Part shown: one piece after another, positions 17,456-55,156 of the stretch | How the letters are laid out: every line of letters starts with the position of its first letter | Numbering within the stretch: the stretch's first letter is position 1 | Origin: Flagellimonas aurea | GTDB taxonomy: Bacteria; Bacteroidota; Bacteroidia; Flavobacteriales; Flavobacteriaceae | Assembly: GCF_017313785.1 (NCBI RefSeq) | Contig: NZ_JAFLNL010000005.1 | Coordinates: 186,001-250,000 of the forward strand | DNA length: 64,000 bases | Reading direction: 5' to 3' | Made by a program: the position numbers and the translations under genes | Notes under the pieces: generated by a model | What the model was told of the DNA's origin: nothing | Seen by the model: the letters and a program-made list of their open reading frames with translations, nothing else | The model's database searches: none

Positions 17456-18130
17456 TTAATCCTTAATATAGACCCTTCCGCCTACAAAGGTTTTTTTATG
17501 GACCGTTTCTGGGTTTCCGTACACATAAACATCGCCCCCGGCCTTCACATTGATATCTACCATTTCTGAAGCAAACACATCGGCTTCGCCACCAGCTGAA
17601 ATTTTAACATCGGTGGTAGAAGTCCTAAGTTCACGCCCTTCAAAAATGCCTCCTGTGTTAATAACAACGGTTTGATTTTTTGCCAAGCCAGAAGCTTTAA
17701 CAATTCCTCCCGTTACCGCCCTTATTTCGGCGTAATCCACGTCCATTCCTATACGGATTGCAGCCCCCTCCTGGGCGCGAAGCTCTATTTTACTCTTTTG
17801 CACCATCTCGTTACAGGTGATTTGGGCGCCTTCGTTACCATCTATAACATCGAGATTGGTATAATAGACTTCGATCATAGTATCCTCGCCCTGAAACTTT
17901 TTGTCCAATTGCATTCTCAGTTTCAAGACCCCGTTTTTGTTGACCCATTGGATATCGTCAACATTCCAGCCTTTGATCATAATCTTGTTCTCATCAGATT
18001 GAATCAAATTGACCTCGATTAAATCAAAAACCTTGATTTTGTTGAATTCCCCCACTTCCGTATCAATGATTCGTTGTGAAAACATGAACAAGGGCAACAA
18101 TAGAAGGCTCAGTGTGTATATTTTTTTCAT
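17456..18130 (-). CDS. secreted DUF2807 (head GIN domain) protein
   Basis: The 224-residue protein has a signal peptide (MKKIYTLSLLLLPLFMFS) and then a right-handed beta-repeat domain of the DUF2807 type: FNKIKVFDLIEVNLIQSDE at the start and repeated short strands with Gly turns (GGIVKASG, INTGGIFEG, SAGGEADVFAS, AGGDVYVYG). Proteins of this family are common in Bacteroidota envelopes and are sometimes called putative auto-transporter adhesins, but no function is established. A lipoprotein relative lies at 28378-29181. It is monocistronic and shares the terminator at 17409-17438. Confidence 0.85.
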   Translation of the reverse strand: MKKIYTLSLLLLPLFMFSQRIIDTEVGEFNKIKVFDLIEVNLIQSDENKIMIKGWNVDDIQWVNKNGVLKLRMQLDKKFQGEDTMIEVYYTNLDVIDGNEGAQITCNEMVQKSKIELRAQEGAAIRIGMDVDYAEIRAVTGGIVKASGLAKNQTVVINTGGIFEGRELRTSTTDVKISAGGEADVFASEMVDINVKAGGDVYVYGNPETVHKKTFVGGRVYIKD

Positions 18131-18262: not shown

Positions 18263-19345
18263 TTACGCGTTGATTATTTTTTCTTGGTGGTTGATGGATT
18301 CTTGGTGGATGGCCTTGAACATTTTTAGGATAAATTCCTCGCTCAAGCCTCTTTGCTCTCCTTCCAAGATCATGTTGCCCAAAATGGCGTTCCATCGGTT
18401 ACTCTGAAGTACGGCAACGTTCTTTTGTCTTTTCAATTCACCGATACCATCGGACACCTTCATTCGTTTTCCTAGCAAATCAATCAATTGATTGTCCAAC
18501 ACATCGATCTGTGCCCTGAGGTTGGTCAACTTGCTGTTGTATTCGGCTTCTTCATCAGTTTCCTTTCTAATTCGAAGATCTTTCATAATCTGAACCAATG
18601 TTTTTGGGGTTACTTGCTGTGCAGCATCACTCCAAGCATTGTCCGGATCGTAATGTGTTTCGATCATCAAACCATCAAAGTTCAAATCCAATGCGGTTTG
18701 GGATACATCAAAAATCATATCACGCTTACCGGTAATGTGGCTAGGGTCATTAATGATGGGAAGGTCAGGAAACTTGGTTTGTAACTCAATGGCCAATTGC
18801 CATTCTGGAATGTTTCTGTACTTCGTTTTTTCGTAAGTAGAGAATCCTCTGTGAATAACTCCCAATTTCTCAATATTGGCAGAGTACAAACGCTCAACAG
18901 CTCCCAACCATAATGAAAGGTCTGGGTTTACCGGGTTTTTCACCAACACGATCTTATCTGTACCTTCCAAAGCATCAGCAATTTCTTGAATGATGAACGG
19001 ACTTACGGTGGAACGTGCTCCGATCCACAATAGATCTACATCATATTCCAAAGCCAAATCTACGTGTGCTCTGTTGGCCACTTCGGTAGCGGTTTTTAAA
19101 CCGGTTTCTTCCTTAACTTTTTGCAACCATTTTAATCCAATGGCTCCAACTCCCTCAAAGTTTCCAGGACGAGTTCTTGGTTTCCAGATTCCGGCACGGT
19201 AATAATTCACGTCGGTATCTTTAAGCTCATGTGCTATCTTAAGCACCTGATCTTCGGTTTCGGCACTACATGGACCTGCAATTACCAAGGGATGACCCAA
19301 ATTCATGTCATCCAACCATTTCCTCATTTCCTTTTTGTTTTCCAT
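18263..19345 (-). CDS. bifunctional DAHP synthase / chorismate mutase
   Basis: The 360-residue protein joins two shikimate-pathway enzymes. Residues about 1-265 form a type I-beta DAHP synthase (VIAGPCSAETEDQ, GIWKPRTRPGNFEG, LVKNPVNPD, IINDPSHITGKRD), which condenses PEP and erythrose-4-phosphate. Residues about 270-360 are an AroQ-type chorismate mutase (LRAQIDVLDNQLIDLLGKRM, the helix with the active-site Arg). Such fusions let chorismate or prephenate inhibit the first enzyme. It is the last gene of the pheA operon, 8 bases after tyrA, and so should be under the leader-peptide attenuator at 22190-22318. Confidence 0.94.
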   Translation of the reverse strand: MENKKEMRKWLDDMNLGHPLVIAGPCSAETEDQVLKIAHELKDTDVNYYRAGIWKPRTRPGNFEGVGAIGLKWLQKVKEETGLKTATEVANRAHVDLALEYDVDLLWIGARSTVSPFIIQEIADALEGTDKIVLVKNPVNPDLSLWLGAVERLYSANIEKLGVIHRGFSTYEKTKYRNIPEWQLAIELQTKFPDLPIINDPSHITGKRDMIFDVSQTALDLNFDGLMIETHYDPDNAWSDAAQQVTPKTLVQIMKDLRIRKETDEEAEYNSKLTNLRAQIDVLDNQLIDLLGKRMKVSDGIGELKRQKNVAVLQSNRWNAILGNMILEGEQRGLSEEFILKMFKAIHQESINHQEKIINA

Positions 19346-19353
19346 AATACTCT

Positions 19354-20214
19354 CTATTTTTTTGTAAGTGGTATTCCTTTTAGTATTTGTTTTATTTTAT
19401 TGGTATTACTCATTTCTTGGTGGACATTTTCGAAATCGTTGTCCACGATCAGTTGTTTGAACCTTGTGAGGTTCTCGATATATTCTTCTAGCGTTTCCAC
19501 AACATTGTCCTTGTTCTGCTCAAAAATCGGCGTCCACATATCCGGGGAACTTTTTGCTAGTCGAACGGTGCTTTCAAAACCACTCCCGGCCATGTCAAAA
19601 ATATCACGCTCATTTTTTTCTTTCTCAATTACCGTCTTTCCCAACATAAAAGAGCTAATGTGTGATAAATGAGATACGTAGGCAATGTGTTTATCGTGCG
19701 CTTCCGGATTCATATATCGGATTCGCATGCCAATTTCCTGAAATATTGCCAATGCTGGCTCCTGTAGTTTAAAGGCTGTTTTTTCGACCTCGCAAATAAT
19801 CATCGTCTTGCCGGCATACAGTCCTTCCAATGCCGCGGTCGGACCAGAAAACTCGGTTCCAGCAATGGGGTGGCAGGCCATAAAGTTCCTTCGTTTAGGA
19901 TGGTCGGCAACTTGTTCACAGATCAATCGTTTGGTAGAACCTGCATCCATTACTACAGTTTCATCCCCTACGGTATCCAATATTTTGGGCAATTCACTGA
20001 CCAAAACATTCACAGGGATGCTCACATAGACCAAATCGGCCGTTTCCAAATCTTGGTAGTCGCCCTTTTTATCTATGATTTGAAGTTGAAGTGCCTCGTC
20101 CAAATGGGCCTCGCTTTTGTCCACACCGATAATTTCAGCTTCCGGATGCACTTTTTTTACATCTTTGGCAAAAGAACCGCCAATCAATCCAACACCTATG
20201 ATAACTACTTTCAT
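19354..20214 (-). CDS. tyrA: prephenate dehydrogenase
   Basis: TyrA oxidises prephenate to 4-hydroxyphenylpyruvate, the tyrosine branch. From the ATG at 20212-20214 the protein has 286 residues. The NAD-binding GVGLIGGSFA is at residues 6-15; AGSTKRLI and CHPIAGTEFSGP follow with the catalytic His. I chose this ATG because a longer reading frame (16 more codons) would overlap the upstream gene, while this one follows its stop by two bases and puts the Rossmann motif at the N-terminus. No ACT domain is present, so feedback control may be at the attenuator. Confidence 0.94.
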   Translation of the reverse strand: MKVVIIGVGLIGGSFAKDVKKVHPEAEIIGVDKSEAHLDEALQLQIIDKKGDYQDLETADLVYVSIPVNVLVSELPKILDTVGDETVVMDAGSTKRLICEQVADHPKRRNFMACHPIAGTEFSGPTAALEGLYAGKTMIICEVEKTAFKLQEPALAIFQEIGMRIRYMNPEAHDKHIAYVSHLSHISSFMLGKTVIEKEKNERDIFDMAGSGFESTVRLAKSSPDMWTPIFEQNKDNVVETLEEYIENLTRFKQLIVDNDFENVHQEMSNTNKIKQILKGIPLTKK

Positions 20215-20216
20215 AA

Positions 20217-21359
20217 TTAAACTCTTTCTATGGCTTCTTTGATTTTTTCTTCGCTCACGCAAAGTGAAAAACGAATGTAGCCTTCGCCATTGCTCCCGAA
20301 TATGGTTCCCGGAGCAATAAAAATATCTTTATCGTGCAACACTTCATCTATGAATTCCTCTGAAGCCTTGGCGCCTTCCGGTAACTTGCACCATACAAAC
20401 ATGCCCACGGCATTTCTATCATACGTACAACCTAATTTATCAGCCAATTGGAACATCAGTTCACGCCGCTTGGTGTATACCTTGTCCAGCTCCTCGAACC
20501 ATTCAGGACCACTCTTCAAAGCTGCAATGGCGCCCTTTTGAATACCGAAGAACATACCGGAATCCATATTGCTCTTTACTTTCAATATCGCATTGATGTG
20601 TTCCTCACTTCCCAATACCATTCCTACACGCCAACCTGCCATGTTGAAAGTCTTACTTAAACTGTTCAGTTCCAAAGTGCAATCTTTTGCTCCTTCAATG
20701 GACAAAATACTGGTGGGGTTATTGGAAAGTACAAAACTGTATGGGTTATCGTTCACCAAAAGGATATAGTTCTTCTTGGCAAAATCCACCAATAACTTGA
20801 GTTGTTCCAAGGAAGCAGTAGCTCCGGTTGGCATATGCGGGTAGCTCACCCACATTAGTTTCACCTTCGATAAATCCTTTTGGGATAATTCCTCAAAATC
20901 TGGAAACCAATCGTTTTCAGCCTTCAAATCGTAGGTAACAGCTTTTCCACCCACTAAATTGGTCACGGATGCGTAGGTAGGATATCCGGGATTGGGCAGC
21001 AATACCTCATCACCTTCATTCAAAAATGCCATGCTGATGTGCATGATTCCTTCCTTTGACCCCATTAAGGGCAAAATTTCTGTTGATGGGTCTACCGTCA
21101 CTTCAAATTTTTGCTGATAAAAATCCGAAATGGCTTCCCTAAGTTCTGGCAAGCCTTGATAGCTTTGGTATTGATGGGCTCCCGCTTCCAAAATGGAATC
21201 CCGAAGTGTTTCCAGTACCAAAGGTGATGGCGCCAGGTCTGGGCTGCCAATCCCCATATTGATGATGGGCCTGCCCTCGGCCATCAATCCCCTGACCTCT
21301 CTTAATTTTTTGGAGAAGTAATACTCTTGTACGGTATTTAACCTTTCTGCTGTCTTCAT
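20217..21359 (-). CDS. class I/II PLP aminotransferase, probably aromatic
   Basis: The 380-residue fold-type I aminotransferase has GIGSPDLAPSP near the N-terminus, the NPGYPTY segment, and the PLP lysine in SLSKTFNMAGWRVG. It belongs to the large aspartate/LL-DAP aminotransferase-like group. Its place between pheA and tyrA, with a one-base overlap to pheA and two bases to tyrA, strongly suggests it transaminates phenylpyruvate and 4-hydroxyphenylpyruvate to Phe and Tyr, or prephenate to arogenate. The sequence alone cannot choose among these. Confidence 0.88.
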   Translation of the reverse strand: MKTAERLNTVQEYYFSKKLREVRGLMAEGRPIINMGIGSPDLAPSPLVLETLRDSILEAGAHQYQSYQGLPELREAISDFYQQKFEVTVDPSTEILPLMGSKEGIMHISMAFLNEGDEVLLPNPGYPTYASVTNLVGGKAVTYDLKAENDWFPDFEELSQKDLSKVKLMWVSYPHMPTGATASLEQLKLLVDFAKKNYILLVNDNPYSFVLSNNPTSILSIEGAKDCTLELNSLSKTFNMAGWRVGMVLGSEEHINAILKVKSNMDSGMFFGIQKGAIAALKSGPEWFEELDKVYTKRRELMFQLADKLGCTYDRNAVGMFVWCKLPEGAKASEEFIDEVLHDKDIFIAPGTIFGSNGEGYIRFSLCVSEEKIKEAIERV

Positions 21360-22186
21360 TACAACAATGCATTTTTATATTCTCCCAAAACCTTAAAATC
21401 TTCGGCCATGATCTGCATCAAAGATTTGGTTTTGGCAAAGTGCTTGTATTTATCAAAAGTCACATCCACAAAAAAAGCATACTTCCAAGGAGTCTCGATT
21501 ACCGGTAAGGACTGAATCTTTGTGAGGTTCATATTGCAATCGCTCATCACGTTCAACACAGTGGCCAAACTCCCTCTTTTGTGATCGGTTATAAATCTCA
21601 GTGATGCCTTGTTGATTTCTTCTTCTGGCAGTACTTTGTTTTGTTTTTTTAGAATGATAAACCTTGTGGAATTGTTCACAATGGTCTGGATATTGTCGGC
21701 AATAATTTCCAAATCATATAATTCGGCCGCCATTTTTGGTGCAATTGCAGCAATATGCTCAAGTTCTTCTTTCTGAATCCGTTTCGCTGTTTCGGCAGTA
21801 TCAGCGCTTTCCACTAGCTTGATCTGCGGATGAGCTTTAAAGAACTCCTTGCACTGCAACAGCGCCATTGGGTGCGAATGTACCTCTTGGATATCATCAA
21901 AAGTTCTTCCTTTCAATACCATAAGATTGTGGTGAATGTTCAAGTAATGTTCACCGATTACATGAATATCGTTATGGTAGACCAAATTGTAATTCGGAAT
22001 AATGGAACCGGCGATGGAGTTTTCGATGGCCATGATTCCTTTATCGGCAGCGCCTATGATCAAACTGTCTACTACAGCATCGAAAGAACTGCATTCCAAC
22101 AGTTCTATGTCCTCACCAAAAAAATCTTTGGCAACCTGGTGGTGGTTCGAACCTTTTATTCCTTGTATGGCAATTTTTAATTCCAT
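21359..22186 (-). CDS. pheA: prephenate dehydratase with ACT domain
   Basis: PheA converts prephenate to phenylpyruvate. The 275-residue protein has the dehydratase domain (about 1-185) with AIENSIAGS and the catalytic NSTRFIIL (Thr-Arg-Phe motif), then an ACT regulatory domain (about 195-275). The Phe-binding ESRP motif of the ACT domain appears as QSLP, so allosteric control may differ. There is no chorismate mutase domain; that activity is fused to DAHP synthase three genes on. The ATG lies just three bases after the U tract of an intrinsic terminator, so transcription into the operon is decided directly before this start. Confidence 0.95.
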   Translation of the reverse strand: MELKIAIQGIKGSNHHQVAKDFFGEDIELLECSSFDAVVDSLIIGAADKGIMAIENSIAGSIIPNYNLVYHNDIHVIGEHYLNIHHNLMVLKGRTFDDIQEVHSHPMALLQCKEFFKAHPQIKLVESADTAETAKRIQKEELEHIAAIAPKMAAELYDLEIIADNIQTIVNNSTRFIILKKQNKVLPEEEINKASLRFITDHKRGSLATVLNVMSDCNMNLTKIQSLPVIETPWKYAFFVDVTFDKYKHFAKTKSLMQIMAEDFKVLGEYKNALL

Positions 22187-22189
22187 TGC

Positions 22190-22260
22190 AAAAAAAAAAG
22201 TCCCGATGTATCGGGACTTTATATATTGGTTATACTTTAAACGTATCTATAATAGTCCCG
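22190..22260 (-). promoter_or_regulatory. transcription attenuator of the pheA operon (antiterminator / terminator)
   Basis: Reading the minus strand: segment 2 (CGGGACT, 22260-22254) lies inside the end of the leader ORF. Segment 3 (AGTCCCG, 22218-22212) can pair with it; allowing one bulged A, the helix grows to 12 bp by UUAUA with UAUAA. Segment 3 can instead pair with segment 4 to give an 11-bp hairpin, AAAGTCCCGAT / ATCGGGACTTT (22220-22197). That hairpin runs into ten U residues ending at 22190. The two pairings exclude each other. A small AUAC/GUAU hairpin fills the antiterminator loop. Everything here is seen directly; function is inferred from the trp/phe attenuation model. Confidence 0.88.
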
Positions 22261-22318
22261 CTTCTCTCCCAAAAAAGAAGTAAAAATAAAAACGGTTCCA
22301 GAAATACGTGTTTGTCAT
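22247..22318 (-). CDS. aromatic-rich leader peptide of the pheA operon
   Basis: A 23-codon ORF from the ATG at 22316-22318 to TAG at 22247-22249. It begins MTNTYFWNR, then residues 10-16 read FYFYFFF, and it ends GREAGLL. Six Phe, three Tyr and one Trp make ten aromatic residues of 23, exactly the amino acids whose pathway lies downstream. A ribosome stalled for charged tRNA-Phe or tRNA-Tyr within codons 10-16 leaves segment 2 (from codon 20 on) free to form the antiterminator. A ribosome reaching the stop covers it and lets the terminator form. It is too short for usual gene finders. Confidence 0.87.
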   Translation of the reverse strand: MTNTYFWNRFYFYFFFGREAGLL

Positions 22319-22441
22319 CTCGTTGTTAATTGTCGGCTAATTTAGGTATTCGATTGGAAACACACAGACATTCCCAAATTTTTTTTGATTTTTTTCAAAA
22401 AAGACATTTTCACTGCATATAATTTTATAGAAACGATGCTT

Positions 22442-35036: not shown

Positions 35037-35175
35037 GTTATCCTTCCCCTTTGGCAGGATTATGCTCCGTACCTTCCCGATACTGTTTCAGGACAAGGGT
35101 AGAATGTAGCACCTTCTCGAGGTCGAGGGTTGCTAAGGCTTCGCAGGGTCCAATCCCTCCACCTTTCTTGATAAC
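35037..35175 (-). promoter_or_regulatory. SAM-I (S-box) riboswitch upstream of metH-metF
   Basis: On the minus strand, P1 is closed by GTTATC (35175-35170) with GATAAC (35042-35037). In order come AAGAAAGGTGGAGGGA, the AAGCC/TAGCAACCC block and AGAAGGTGCTA, all S-box hallmarks. The arm after the GGTGCTA segment is enlarged, holding a long hairpin-rich insert. A weak -7-like box (TTTCTTTG, 35211-35204) with a TTG 20 bases upstream could give the transcript. No U-tract terminator follows, so control may be on translation. The 357-base stretch 34963-35319 contains this element and the terminator at 35271-35298. Confidence 0.93.
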
Positions 35176-35270
35176 ACTTTCAATTTATTAATGAACTGAA
35201 CTGCAAAGAAACGGCACTCGTAAACGAAAAGCAAAAAATGCCCTTGAATTTTTAGAAATACAACAATAAA

Positions 35271-45018: not shown

Positions 45019-46191
45019 TTAGCCCAACGCCTGCTCAATATCCGCAATAATATCATCAATATGTTCCAAACCTACGGAAACGCGAACCATTCCATCAGAA
45101 ATTCCAACGGCATTGCGTTCCTCTGTGGTCAGCTTGCTATGTGTTGTGGACGCAGGGTGGGTCACAATGCTACGGGCATCGCCCAAGTTGGCGGACAAAG
45201 ACAACAATTTAATGCTATCAAAAAATTCCCGACCTGCTTCCAAGCCCCCTTTTACCTCAAATGCCACTACACAACCACCTGCCTTCATTTGCTTTTTGGC
45301 AATGTCGTACTTGGGATGTGATTTTAAGAAAGGATATTTAACCCGCTCGATTTTATCATGTCCTTCCAGATAGGTTGCCAACTTTAGGGCATTTTCGCAA
45401 TGTCTGTCCACTCGAATCGCCAAGGTTTCCAAGCTTCTGGACAACACCCATGCGTTGAAAGGTGATAACGCAGGGCCCGTAATTCGAGAAAAACGATATA
45501 CTTTATCCATCAATTCCCCGCTTCCGACGGTAATTCCTGCCAAGACTCTTCCTTGTCCATCCATCAATTTGGTTCCTGAATGAATCACCAAGTCGGCACC
45601 GAATTTTATAGGTTGCTGCAAGTAGGGCGTTGCAAAACAGTTATCAACAATAAAAATAAGGCCGTGCTTTTTGGCAAACTTCGCCAGCACTTCCAAATCC
45701 AACACGTCGACTCCTGGGTTGGTCGGTGTTTCCGCATAAAGAATTTTGGTGTTGGGCTTAATCAATCCCTCTATTTGAGATAAATCTTTGGCATCAAAAT
45801 AGCTTGTTTCGATGTTCCATTTTGGAAAAAACTGGGTGAACAGGGTATGTGTGGAACCAAAGATGCTTTTGGAGGATATCACATGGTCACCAGCATTCAA
45901 CAATGCCGCCAAGGTTGAAAAAACGGCCGCCATTCCAGAGGCATAGGCAAAACCATTTTCCGCACCTTCCATTTGGCAGACCCTTTCAATGAGTTCGTTG
46001 GAATTGGGATTGGAATATCTGGAATAAATATTCCGCTGCTTTTCTTCGGCAAAGGAGGCACGCATGTCCTCCGCATCTTCAAAAACAAAGCTGGATGTCA
46101 TATAAATGGGGCTGGAATGCTCCAAATTTTGACTTCGCGCCATTTGCGTTCTTATTGCCTGTGTCTCGAATTTTTTGCCTTGCTTGCTCAT
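45019..46191 (-). CDS. PLP trans-sulfuration enzyme, probably O-succinyl/O-acetylhomoserine sulfhydrylase
   Basis: The 390-residue protein belongs to the Cys/Met-metabolism PLP family: PIYMTSSFVFEDAEDM, SRYSNPNSNELIERV, ASGMAAVFSTLAALL, and the PLP lysine in HSGTKLMDGQGRVLAG. It resembles MetZ/MetB-type enzymes that join a homoserine ester with sulfide (or cysteine). The same operon also holds metY, a different branch of the family, so the two may divide substrates. Its ATG overlaps the upstream fusion gene stop (ATGA, 4 bases). Confidence 0.88.
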   Translation of the reverse strand: MSKQGKKFETQAIRTQMARSQNLEHSSPIYMTSSFVFEDAEDMRASFAEEKQRNIYSRYSNPNSNELIERVCQMEGAENGFAYASGMAAVFSTLAALLNAGDHVISSKSIFGSTHTLFTQFFPKWNIETSYFDAKDLSQIEGLIKPNTKILYAETPTNPGVDVLDLEVLAKFAKKHGLIFIVDNCFATPYLQQPIKFGADLVIHSGTKLMDGQGRVLAGITVGSGELMDKVYRFSRITGPALSPFNAWVLSRSLETLAIRVDRHCENALKLATYLEGHDKIERVKYPFLKSHPKYDIAKKQMKAGGCVVAFEVKGGLEAGREFFDSIKLLSLSANLGDARSIVTHPASTTHSKLTTEERNAVGISDGMVRVSVGLEHIDDIIADIEQALG

Positions 46192-49100
46192 ATCTTTTCT
46201 GCTATTCTTAAAATGTCACCAAATACACCTCTTGCCGTTACAGCGGCACCAGCGCCAGCACCCTGAATCACCAATGGATGTTCTCCGTAGGATTCTGTGT
46301 AAATCTCAATAATGGAATCGGAACCTTTTACCTGGCCCAATGCACTTTCTTTGGGCACAGAGACCAATTTCACCTCCAAAATCCCTTTGTCCTGTTGCAA
46401 ATCTCCATGCAGGTCACCCACATAGCGAAGCACGTGACCAGATTCTTGGTTTTCCTTGATTTCCTTATACATTTTATCCATCTCCCCGATTCGTTCCATG
46501 AACTTTTCAAAATCCAAGGTTTGTAACTCTTCGGGTATCAGGTTTTGCACGTCTATGTCCGAAAACTCGTTCTGAAGGTCCAATTCCCTGGCCAAGATCA
46601 ACAATTTCCTTCCCACATCGTTGCCCGATAGGTCTTCTCTTGGGTCAGGTTCGGTAAACCCACTTTGCATGGCTTCCTTTACAATTTCTGAAAAGGAAAC
46701 GTCCTTCTCGGAAAAAGTGTTGAAAATATAACTCAGCGATCCCGAGAAAACTCCTTTGATTCGGGTGATGTTCTCCCCCGAGAGATGCAATAGTTTGATG
46801 GTATCGATCAATGGAAGCCCTGCACCCACATTGGTCTCGTAGAGGTATTGTTTCTGGTTCTTGTCCAAACACTTTCGAACCGATTTGTATTTCTCAAAAC
46901 TCAACGTATTGGCGATTTTGTTCGATGAAACCAAATCAAAACCGTGCCCGATCAAAGGTTCGTACTGCTCCACAAATGTTTTGCTGGCCGTATTGTCCAC
47001 AGCGATCAAGTTTTCCAAATGATGCTTTTTGGCAAATGCGGTAATGTCCTCAATTTGATAGGGCTGGCCTTCGTTTTCCAAACGTTCCTTCCAATCAGCG
47101 CCCACTCCTGTGGCATCCAAAAGCACCTTTCGCGAGTTTGCTACGGCAAACACTTTTAAATCGATGCTTTTTCGCGCTTCAATACTATTTTTTGAATCCA
47201 AGATCTGACTGATCAAAGTGCCCCCAACATTTCCGTGGCCAAATAGTGCCAGGTTGATTTTCTTTGCGATTCCAAAAATTTGTCCGTGAATCACATTGAT
47301 GGCCTTATTCAAATCTGATTTCTTAACCACCATACTCACGTTCTTCCCTGTGACGGTGTTGTTGAACAGCAATGGAGTAATCTGGTTCTTGGCCAATGCA
47401 TTGAAGGGCTTATGGAAACTGCTCAAATCCATTCCCACAATGGAGATTACGGAAACATCCTTGACCACCGAAATTTGGTTGATATCCTTTGATGAATAAT
47501 CCGTTTCAAATTCTTGGTCAAGCACTTTTTTGGCCTTGTCGGCCTTGCTTACATCCACCACCAGGCCGATGCCTCTTTCCGAAGATCCCTGCGACACGAT
47601 ACCCACACTGATGCCATTAAGGCCAAGGGCTCTAAAAATCCGCATATCCACACCAACTTTACCGAGCAATCCCCTACCCTCCAAATTGATCAAGGCCATA
47701 TTTTCCAGCACCGAAAGGGATTTAATGCCGCCATTGTCCGTTTTTGGACCTATCAAAGTGCCTTCGTTGTCATCGTTGAAAGTGTTGCAGATGCGCAACG
47801 GAATATTTTTCTCTATCAATGGAATTATGGTCTTCGCATGCAATATATTGGCCCCAAAATTGGCCAACTCGTTGGCTTCACCGTACGATATGACATCAAT
47901 CAACTTTGCATCGGCCACCAAATCTGGATTGGCGGTAAAAATGCCATCGACATGAGTGTAATTGATCAACTCGCCAGCATCCAAAAAGTTGGCCAGCAAA
48001 GCAGCGGAATAATTACTGCCGTTCCTGCCCAAAGTGGTGGTTGAGCCATCACGATTGGAACCAATAAATCCAGTAACAATAGGAATGGTATTCTTTTCCA
48101 ATTCATGGAAATATCGAAGCACATTTTCTTTGGATGTTCCTTGGTCCACCTCGGCATTACTGAAATTGTCATCCGTAGTGATCAATTTTCTGGAATCCAA
48201 AAGCTTTGCTTGCAATCCAGCGGCATTCAGGGCTGCCGTTACATATTTGGCGGACAACAGTTCCCCGAAGGACAATACCTCATCCTTGGTCTTGAGACTG
48301 TAATCCCCCGTTAAGGAAACCCCGTTCAATATTTTTTCAATGGCGGAGAGTTCTTCATCAATATCTACACCATCAAAATTATTTTTTTGATAGTCCGAGA
48401 ACTTTTTCAAATCAGCTTTAAAATCAACTCCTTTGGCCGCTTTCTCCAGCAGATTTTCCAATTGGTCGGTCGCTTTGCCACGAGCAGATACCACTACGGC
48501 AAAGTGCTCTTCTTCCTCATACCTTTTACGGATGATGTTCAAAACGCGCTCAATGCCTTCACCGTTTGCTAGAGACTTTCCTCCGAACTTCAATATCTTG
48601 ATACGTTCGGTATTCTTTTGAAAAACGGTCTCCAACAATTTTTCCAATTGTTCAAACTCCATCAAAAAGGCATCATGACCGTGCACGGATTGCACTTCAC
48701 CATAGGTGACATTGGTATTGGCCTGGGCCAACCGTTTAAAGGTCTCCTTATTTTCTTCTGCTGTAAAAAATAGGTCGGAATTGACCCCTATGATATGGAT
48801 TTTGGTATCGCTCTCCTGCAATGCCTTGAAGGCTTCCTCTCCATTTCTCGTAATGTCGATGGATTTTAGAAGCTGGTTCATCAATTTATAGGCTGACAAT
48901 TGGAAACGCTCCTGTAATTTTTTGCCATGATGCATCAACCAAGACTCCACGTTGAACACCTTGAGTTCTTCATTGGTGCTCCGCTTAAATCGTTCTTTGA
49001 AAGATTCTGGTGTACGGTAGCAAAGCATGGCATGCATGCGGGCATCGTGCACGGGTTGCTTGGAGTTGACCAAGAACTGCTCCTGAATCTGACAGTTCGC

Positions 49101-49568
49101 AATCAACCAATCCGTAGATTTCCAATCGGATGCCACAGGAATCAAATGTTCCGTGATTTTTGGATTGATGGCCGTCATTTCCCAAGCAATTCCACCTCCC
49201 AAGGAACCACCGATGATGGCGAACAGTTTATCAATCTCCAATTCCTTCAATCCCCAAAGAAATATTCTGGCGATATCCCCAGCTACAAAATCTTTATAAT
49301 TTTCGATAATGAATCCATCAAAACCATTTCCTGGAATATTGAAGGACAAAATCGTATACTTCTCGGTATCGATACATTTTCCTTCACCGATCAAATCAGA
49401 CCACCATCCATCTTTCCCTGCCACGTTGGAATTGCCCGTAAGCGCATGGTTCACCAAAATAATGGGTGCCGTATGCAAGGGTTTTCCAAAAACTTGGTAC
49501 GACAACTTCAGGTCTTGGGCAACACCACTTTGGGTAGTAAATTGTTCTATATTTAAATGCTGCAGCAT
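46188..49568 (-). CDS. thrA: trifunctional MetX - aspartokinase - homoserine dehydrogenase fusion
   Basis: The 1126-residue protein has three parts. Residues 1-320 are a MetX-like homoserine O-acyltransferase with Ser122 (GGSLGGG), Asp265 (GVNSDLFF) and His298 (HGHDAF), a complete triad. Residues about 323-765 are an aspartokinase (ILKFGGKSL) with two ACT-type regulatory segments. Residues about 770-1126 are a homoserine dehydrogenase (LALFGHGNVGG). It thus holds the first and third steps from aspartate to homoserine and the acylation that commits homoserine to methionine. Aspartate-semialdehyde dehydrogenase is missing and must be elsewhere. It lies 30 bases after metY and overlaps metZ, all under a SAM-I riboswitch. 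Confidence 0.93.
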   Translation of the reverse strand: MLQHLNIEQFTTQSGVAQDLKLSYQVFGKPLHTAPIILVNHALTGNSNVAGKDGWWSDLIGEGKCIDTEKYTILSFNIPGNGFDGFIIENYKDFVAGDIARIFLWGLKELEIDKLFAIIGGSLGGGIAWEMTAINPKITEHLIPVASDWKSTDWLIANCQIQEQFLVNSKQPVHDARMHAMLCYRTPESFKERFKRSTNEELKVFNVESWLMHHGKKLQERFQLSAYKLMNQLLKSIDITRNGEEAFKALQESDTKIHIIGVNSDLFFTAEENKETFKRLAQANTNVTYGEVQSVHGHDAFLMEFEQLEKLLETVFQKNTERIKILKFGGKSLANGEGIERVLNIIRKRYEEEEHFAVVVSARGKATDQLENLLEKAAKGVDFKADLKKFSDYQKNNFDGVDIDEELSAIEKILNGVSLTGDYSLKTKDEVLSFGELLSAKYVTAALNAAGLQAKLLDSRKLITTDDNFSNAEVDQGTSKENVLRYFHELEKNTIPIVTGFIGSNRDGSTTTLGRNGSNYSAALLANFLDAGELINYTHVDGIFTANPDLVADAKLIDVISYGEANELANFGANILHAKTIIPLIEKNIPLRICNTFNDDNEGTLIGPKTDNGGIKSLSVLENMALINLEGRGLLGKVGVDMRIFRALGLNGISVGIVSQGSSERGIGLVVDVSKADKAKKVLDQEFETDYSSKDINQISVVKDVSVISIVGMDLSSFHKPFNALAKNQITPLLFNNTVTGKNVSMVVKKSDLNKAINVIHGQIFGIAKKINLALFGHGNVGGTLISQILDSKNSIEARKSIDLKVFAVANSRKVLLDATGVGADWKERLENEGQPYQIEDITAFAKKHHLENLIAVDNTASKTFVEQYEPLIGHGFDLVSSNKIANTLSFEKYKSVRKCLDKNQKQYLYETNVGAGLPLIDTIKLLHLSGENITRIKGVFSGSLSYIFNTFSEKDVSFSEIVKEAMQSGFTEPDPREDLSGNDVGRKLLILARELDLQNEFSDIDVQNLIPEELQTLDFEKFMERIGEMDKMYKEIKENQESGHVLRYVGDLHGDLQQDKGILEVKLVSVPKESALGQVKGSDSIIEIYTESYGEHPLVIQGAGAGAAVTARGVFGDILRIAEKI

Positions 49569-50873: not shown

Positions 50874-50988
50874 GACTTTTGCTGCTTTAATTGTTAATTT
50901 TTTAAATTAAAAAGTCAAACCCTTCGACATAGGCCGTAGGAAAATCAAAAAGTTATAAGAAAGTAAAATCGAAAAATGTCGATTGTCG

Positions 50989-51090
50989 TTATCTATACCC
51001 AAATGGGATAGAATGTAGCACCTTCTCGGCATCAGGGGCCAAGGGTTGCTAAGGCTTCATCGGGTCTATTCCCTCCGCCTTTCTTGATAA
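50989..51090 (-). promoter_or_regulatory. SAM-I (S-box) riboswitch upstream of metY
   Basis: On the minus strand, P1 is TTATC (51090-51086) with GATAA near 50993-50989. The core follows in S-box order: AAGAAAGGCGGAGGGA, GATGAAGCC, TAGCAACCC and GAGAAGGTGCTA. The aptamer starts about 20 bases from the expected transcription start. The 115 bases to metY hold an AATCGA/TCGATT pair but no convincing terminator, so control may be at translation. The 370-base stretch 50874-51243 holds this element and its promoter. Confidence 0.94.
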
Positions 51091-51120
51091 CTAATCAATA
51101 CGTGTTTGAACTTCGTGGGA

Positions 51121-54987: not shown

Positions 54988-55074
54988 TATACTTATATAT
55001 TTTAATGAAGATTTGACAGAAGGGGCTCTAGAAGTCTACATCCTTTCGGGACGCCCGTATGCGGTACGGTGAAA

Positions 55075-55145
55075 CTGCTTTAGCATTTTTTGATCCTGAA
55101 CCAAAGATTCGGGACAAGAGGTTGCAATCAGTCAAATCTTTCCTC
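55075..55145 (-). promoter_or_regulatory. SAM-II-like riboswitch in the metK leader
   Basis: On the minus strand GAGG (55145-55142) and CCTC (55121-55118) close P1. The loop between reads GATTTGACTGATTGCA, and the downstream strand reads AAATGCTAAAGCAG. These are the two conserved blocks of SAM-II (SAM_alpha). The pseudoknot pair CTG with CAG replaces the usual CCG with CGG, a compensatory change. An extra hairpin (TCCCGAA/TTCAGGA, one mismatch) is inserted between the blocks. Downstream are two more hairpins (CCGTA/TACGG and CGTCC/GGATG). The 322-base stretch 54988-55309 holds this element and its promoter; the rest has no gene that I see. Confidence 0.7.
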
Positions 55146-55156
55146 GTTTCAAGGGC

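Follow-up and report, generated by a model that had tools for sequence, protein, structure and literature searches.

The window, a 64,000-nt stretch of the Flagellimonas aurea genome (contig NZ_JAFLNL010000005.1), carries on its minus strand four genes, assigned by Pfam, for the synthesis of Phe, Tyr and their common precursor. They are preceded by a short ORF rich in aromatic codons and by a hairpin with a run of T. The features are given below in the order in which they would be transcribed, in window coordinates.

22337..22344, minus strand: candidate -7 promoter element TAAATTAG, 18 nt before the leader ATG
22247..22318, minus strand: leader ORF of 23 codons, MTNTYFWNRFYFYFFFGREAGLL, with 10 aromatic codons
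22271..22291, minus strand: sensor codons 10–16 (FYFYFFF), at a conserved spacing to segment 2
22254..22260, minus strand: segment 2, CGGGACT, ORF nt 59–65 (codons 20–22)
22212..22218, minus strand: segment 3, AGTCCCG, partner of segment 2 or of segment 4
22197..22220, minus strand: terminator hairpin, 10 bp with a 4-nt loop
22199..22205, minus strand: segment 4, CGGGACT
22190..22199, minus strand: run of ten T, three of them within the stem
21359..22186, minus strand: pheA, prephenate dehydratase (Pfam)
20217..21359, minus strand: class I/II aminotransferase (Pfam)
19354..20217, minus strand: tyrA, prephenate dehydrogenase (Pfam; start taken at the ATG at 20217)
18263..19345, minus strand: aroG/Q, DAHP synthase–chorismate mutase fusion (Pfam)

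The junctions between the operon genes are one-base overlaps or an 8-base gap. A simple scan of the same strand from the hairpin to 17438 yields just two weak terminator-like sites, of 5–6 pairs, and the next strong terminator on this strand is past a DUF2807 gene. This gene (17456–18130, minus strand) follows aroG/Q with no strong terminator between them and may be the last, co-transcribed gene of the operon. The upstream neighbor of the leader is divergent, so the hairpin is not the end of another gene on the pheA strand.

The leader, the hairpin and their alternative pairings

Re-reading the sequence bears out the aromatic-rich 23-codon leader of the preliminary description, with FYFYFFF at codons 10–16, and more aromatic codons are found at positions 5–7. 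Among the 514 ATG ORFs of 15–30 aa on both strands of the window, two reach 40% aromatic residues, the pheA leader being the sole one with ten. The leader ORF ends 26 nt before the terminator, and segment 2 at its end is a copy of the terminator 3' arm, which it can replace on the AGTCCCG 5' arm. The T run ends at 22190 and is followed by GCA and the pheA ATG at 22186, so that the tail does end three bases before the start codon, as had been described. The terminator stem, earlier given as 11 bp, has 10 bp and a 4-nt loop instead; the ten T of the described 10-U tail are all present, with three of them paired in the stem and not free of it. The leader with its switchable hairpin before pheA is confirmed as a real feature of this locus.

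Folding upholds the two exclusive pairings that had been claimed. The 2:3 stem has 12 bp (7 + 5) with one unpaired A, at -14.8 to -15.0 kcal/mol, and the 3:4 terminator hairpin has an energy of -13.9 kcal/mol. The region as a whole folds with a z of -4.61, and none of 200 shuffles folds as well. In the full-length RNA the terminator is favored over the antiterminator, and an attenuation scheme would therefore depend on folding during transcription. RNA reaching only to segment 3, with no ribosome on it, adopts a fold that includes the antiterminator.

A conserved 1:2 stem was tried as a defining part of the element and was not retained, as a general one is not supported. In the window, the full-length fold pairs codons 4–8 with a stretch past the leader stop. 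The consensus fold gives only a small hairpin at this place, devoid of both-side changes, and in a comparison with swapped segments a locus's own 1:2 pairing falls within the best 5% of swaps at 12 of 30 loci in other families, at 9 of 84 loci in other genera of the own family, and at none of 30 in the genus. Given that a general 1:2 stem is not supported and that the fold up to segment 3 includes the antiterminator, an untranslated leader would be expected to read through, unlike in E. coli, a prediction made uncertain by the pairing of codons 4–8 in the window.

Leaders before pheA in other genomes

We sampled 167 pheA upstream regions. These comprise the 58 closest (best-scoring) loci, L001–L058, of which 30 are of the genus (the window's own included) and 28 of other genera, and 109 added regions, 58 of them from further genomes of the own family and 51 from other families of the order and class. 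A region was scored as positive when an ATG ORF of 14–30 aa, with at least six aromatic residues and 28% of its residues aromatic, was followed by a terminator within 110 nt. By this rule 144 of the 167 loci are positive, 2 have a leader alone, and 21 fail, so aromatic codons are indeed conserved in the pheA leaders of relatives, as had been expected. All 58 closest loci are positive; the preliminary description had named the absence of a conserved aromatic leader or of paired segments from close relatives as grounds for its refutation, and no such absence is seen. The own family (f1) contributes 114 positives in 116 (the two failures are L144 and L187) and the other families of the order and class 30 in 51; 19 of the 27 families sampled have at least one.

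In 3340 dinucleotide shuffles the rule picked out a leader alone 133 times and a leader with terminator once. Terminator-like hairpins are in themselves common (5 in 6.9 kb, where 6.4 are expected), as would suit a plain terminator beside a chance ORF. We find such a coincidence scarcely credible, given the single shuffle in which both features occur together, the lack of a same-strand gene directly upstream to be terminated, and the joint change of three segments described below; in our view the comparison already refutes it.

Inspection by eye recovers both parts in 5 of the 21 failing regions (L101, L107 and L127 of family f31, L135 of f15, and L093 of f49), and about 15 of the 21 are without a leader. 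No leader was seen by eye in f5, f12, f27, f35, f38 (terminator only) or f76, nor at L092 and L095 (f30), where pheA comes after another ORF. Leaders are present at L017 and L036, both of which a stricter sequence pattern had missed. Since pheA was detected in 186 of 199 genomes of the own family and in only 47 of 158 class genomes, the spread of the attenuator refers to genomes with this pheA. The rule was also positive for 78 of the 80 best named records, all Flavobacterium records included; the two exceptions are L277, which has no upstream DNA, and L312, which has repeats upstream.

Some loci differ in their layout. At five loci of f27 without the attenuator (L102, L103, L104, L110 and L114), a TAnnTTTG promoter motif stands a few bases before the pheA ATG, and a sixth f27 locus, L119, has neither attenuator nor motif. 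Within the genus, L010, L018 and L028 have ~75 additional bases between an intact attenuator and pheA, and these bases are similar in L010 and L018.

Beyond the class, 25 of 27 regions lack a leader plus terminator. The two positives, L205 (G594) and L208 (G554), belong to other classes of the phylum and each have an aromatic leader and a terminator. Their pheA genes score highest of all outside the class (221.7 and 206.4 bits, with the next best at 153.2), which suggests, and does not prove, that pheA was transferred together with its attenuator.

A search with an RNA model, R1, gave matches at E <= 0.01 in 88 of 296 class genomes, many of those listed being the terminator half only. Thirty R1 loci were fetched, one of them the window's own, and 21 lie before pheA and 9 elsewhere. 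R1 matches were therefore rejected as a measure of distribution, and pheA upstream regions were counted instead.

The leaders also share features of their start. In F. johnsoniae, the accessible part of PMC6847099 gives the -7 consensus as TAHHTTTG, and reports that mRNAs are without Shine-Dalgarno sequences and that A is favored at -3. Of the 144 positive loci, 113 carry the pattern TAHHTT[AT]G 5–50 nt upstream of the leader ATG, most commonly at 18 nt, as compared with 161 of 2880 mononucleotide shuffles; outside the own family it is found in 12 of 30 loci. The base at -3 of the leader ATG is A in 96 of 144.

Joint change of the segments and codon spacing

In an alignment of 49 family sequences, 98.5% of the cells of the 3:4 stem are paired and three both-side changes occur, a level that 0 of 500 shuffles reach. 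The 2:3 stem, at 95.9% paired and zero both-side changes, does no better than shuffles in the same alignment, and for lack of such co-variation it is not used as evidence at the family level. Class-wide, the three segments vary in concert, as in the 2/3/4 triples CGGGACT/AGTCCCG/CGGGACT, CGAGACG/AGTCTCG/CGAGACT, AGGATTG/CAATCCT/AGGATTT, and AGCGGTC/GACCGCT/AGCGGTC; 85 triples were compared, a few of them visibly mis-registered T-rich picks. Compensatory changes in segments 2, 3 and 4, which had been predicted, are thus found across the class and fail to appear for 2:3 inside the family alignment.

The 2:3 duplex averages -13.4 kcal/mol when segment 2 is paired with its own segment 3, versus -9.2 with dissimilar ones from other loci, and the own duplex is stronger than the swap mean in 137 of 146 loci. 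An ungapped 7-nt score gives 5.62 for own and 4.20 for swapped segments. The own duplex is weaker than the swap mean at six loci (L033, L036, L041, L047, L120 and L192) and above it slightly or not at all at L108, L111, L037 and others. The swap test used a non-leader ORF for L173 and L182, both of which count against the reading, and a wrong gene start for L113. By these tests, an antiterminator exclusive with the terminator has been kept across the class by compensatory change.

The leader could also be a small protein with a function of its own and the terminator incidental to it, and a well-conserved core, YFWNGFYFYFFF, within the family speaks for this. Across families, however, the peptides have just their aromatic richness in common and it is the RNA pairing that is kept, and at L010 a one-base deletion shifts the frame of the peptide end and leaves segment 2 unchanged. 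The GREAG-like peptide end, which had been expected to be conserved, instead tracks the RNA segment and differs between clades. We consider a functional small protein very unlikely.

A bacterial ribosome with a given codon in its A site extends, at its leading edge, ~12 nt beyond the first base of that codon. Counted from first base to first base, the last clustered aromatic codon stands a median of 12 nt from segment 2 (quartiles 11 and 13), where segment 2 is taken, in data and control alike, to be the stretch near the stop codon that forms the best duplex with segment 3. This spacing is 9–14 nt in 133 of 144 leaders versus 20% when codons are permuted within leaders; the 30 loci of other families have a median of 11 nt, with three outliers at 3–4 nt. 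A ribosome stalled on the last aromatic codon should just leave segment 2 free. Segment 2 extends no further than the last base of the stop codon at 130 of 144 loci, and a terminating ribosome would consequently cover it. Both counts agree with the earlier claim that the codon positions suit stalling and covering.

On average a leader has 5.7 Phe, 3.3 Tyr and 0.65 Trp residues; Trp is absent from 52 of the 144 leaders, Tyr from one, and Phe from none. Phe, Tyr and Trp make up 24.8, 14.1 and 2.8% of leader residues, respectively; the corresponding figures for 42 long window ORFs are 4.7, 3.5 and 0.9%. We read this as a joint Phe/Tyr sensor in which Trp is optional, as would befit an operon making Phe, Tyr and their common precursor. 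The E. coli pheL leader uses Phe alone as its sensor codon; unlike pheL-pheA, the window has mixed Phe/Tyr(/Trp) codons before an operon with tyrA, an aminotransferase and DAHP synthase.

The proposed mechanism and its known relatives

It is very probable, from the sequence and its comparison, that pheA-aminotransferase-tyrA-aroG/Q is under ribosome-mediated transcription attenuation governed by the charging of Phe and Tyr (perhaps also Trp) tRNAs. The sequence and its comparison establish the parts, the two exclusive pairings, their joint change, the spacing of codons and segments, and the link to pheA, and from these we infer a transcription start, leader translation, stalling, termination, and a response to Phe and Tyr. 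RNA polymerase would start a short distance upstream, and a ribosome would begin the 23-codon leader. Were charged tRNA-Phe or tRNA-Tyr (possibly tRNA-Trp) scarce, the ribosome would stall among codons 5–16 with its leading edge halted just before segment 2, which would pair with segment 3 once that had been made. Segment 4 would then be left unpaired, and transcription would continue into pheA and the genes that follow. With aromatic tRNAs charged, the ribosome would reach the stop codon and cover segment 2, segments 3 and 4 would pair, and transcription would terminate just before pheA.

The 3:4 hairpin might in addition hide the pheA start, such that read-through RNA would be poorly translated unless segment 2 holds segment 3. 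The three bases between T run and ATG in the window, and a tight layout in many loci of the genus, are what such dual attenuation would call for. In other genera and families the terminator is far from pheA, for example 116–130 nt upstream in L038, L040 and L044 and 252 nt in L123, so start hiding cannot be the function that all share, and we think dual control improbable.

Transcription attenuation by a leader peptide is the reading that we favor, and the findings support assigning the window element, in kind, to the classical leader-peptide attenuators. An ORF with codons for the products precedes the operon, an intrinsic terminator (as judged by sequence) lies between ORF and pheA, and the sensor codons are placed so that stalling would free, and termination cover, segment 2, with the ribosome edge taken at ~12 nt. 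The earlier interpretation was right in substance. The E. coli pheL-pheA attenuator (Rfam RF01859, Phe_leader) likewise has a Phe-rich leader peptide and a terminator before pheA. Its model matches the window leader over its full length at 35.1 bits, short of the gathering score of 55, and the window element is accordingly not filed there; a further difference is that no general 1:2 stem was found. The likeness to the E. coli phe/trp logic drawn earlier is thus incomplete, as a general 1:2 stem is not supported. Bacteroid-trp (RF01692), a leader listed in the accessible part of PMC2864571, shares phylum and logic and differs in its Trp codons and its operon; at E values up to 10, its model finds nothing at the pheA leader. 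Neither the site nor the leaders of 13 relatives reach the gathering score of any Rfam family, and the sequence is variable outside the ORF and the pairing segments. A ligand-binding riboswitch or T-box overlapping an ORF, for which we found no supporting point, is on these grounds hardly conceivable.

In the same genome, a Trp leader, MNNRIANNWWWINLRRTS, precedes a trpE-like gene (L317; 65.4 bits with Rfam Bacteroid-trp, terminator read by eye), and hisG (L315) is preceded by a candidate His leader, MRNKNTHHHFYTCPQAR, that has a script-called terminator and no Rfam match at gathering score. No convincing leaders were seen, among the two best ORFs per gene, before two homoserine-dehydrogenase genes, two of ilvD type and two further chorismate-binding ones (no gene start was located for L318). 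Elsewhere in the window, two SAM riboswitches (RF00162) and one SAM-II (RF01726) lie on the minus strand within ~20 kb, at 35057–35177, 50986–51093 and 55070–55151. The same-strand genes that follow these elements encode homocysteine S-methyltransferase and B12-dependent methionine synthase, a Cys/Met-metabolism PLP enzyme, and SAM synthetase. A 1126-aa ORF at 46188–49568 (minus strand) joins an alpha/beta-hydrolase domain to an aspartokinase with ACT domain and a homoserine dehydrogenase.

The preliminary description knew of no experimental report in Bacteroidota for this pathway, which is only partly true. For F. psychrophilum, the accessible part of PMC9723704 gives transcript-level evidence of a structured 5' element that lies before pheA, is conserved across further genera of the Flavobacteriaceae and has no Rfam hit, and it speaks of "strong clues" to attenuation by leader peptides ahead of amino-acid operons. 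That element, which belongs to the same gene and family, is most likely the one studied here; in the same part of the paper the leader-peptide case is not stated for pheA and a spread beyond the family is not described. New relative to it are the spread beyond the family, the triple co-variation, the ribosome-edge spacing, and the lack of support for a general 1:2 stem. In the accessible part of a B. thetaiotaomicron map (PMC7366714), leader-like small ORFs are mentioned and pheA does not occur. A direct test of a pheA leader in Bacteroidota was not found in the literature covered (most subscription journals, and preprints, fall outside it), and of the papers listed there only PMC9723704 was found to concern pheA in this group.

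If the reading is right, leader-peptide attenuation in Bacteroidota would extend beyond trp, the case already catalogued, to Phe/Tyr synthesis, and the comparison shows an element that is old and, in class members with pheA, widespread. The loci collected are enough to propose an RNA family; none in the Rfam copy searched covers the element at gathering score. Since attenuation needs a leader ribosome that keeps pace with RNA polymerase, the element would be a natural probe of how transcription and translation are coupled in a phylum where Shine-Dalgarno sequences do not lead initiation, and its tight codon-to-segment spacing would lend itself to quantitative predictions. We tentatively suggest, as a possibility short of even odds, an attenuator family that occurs in the majority of the pheA-bearing class families sampled. 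It would combine Phe, Tyr and often also Trp codons in a single sensor of the charging of aromatic tRNAs, would rely on a fixed distance of ~12 nt from the last sensor codon to segment 2 and not on a general 1:2 stem, and would by default read through when its leader is untranslated, the reverse of the textbook E. coli case. If true, this would imply close coupling of ribosome and polymerase in bacteria that initiate without Shine-Dalgarno sequences.
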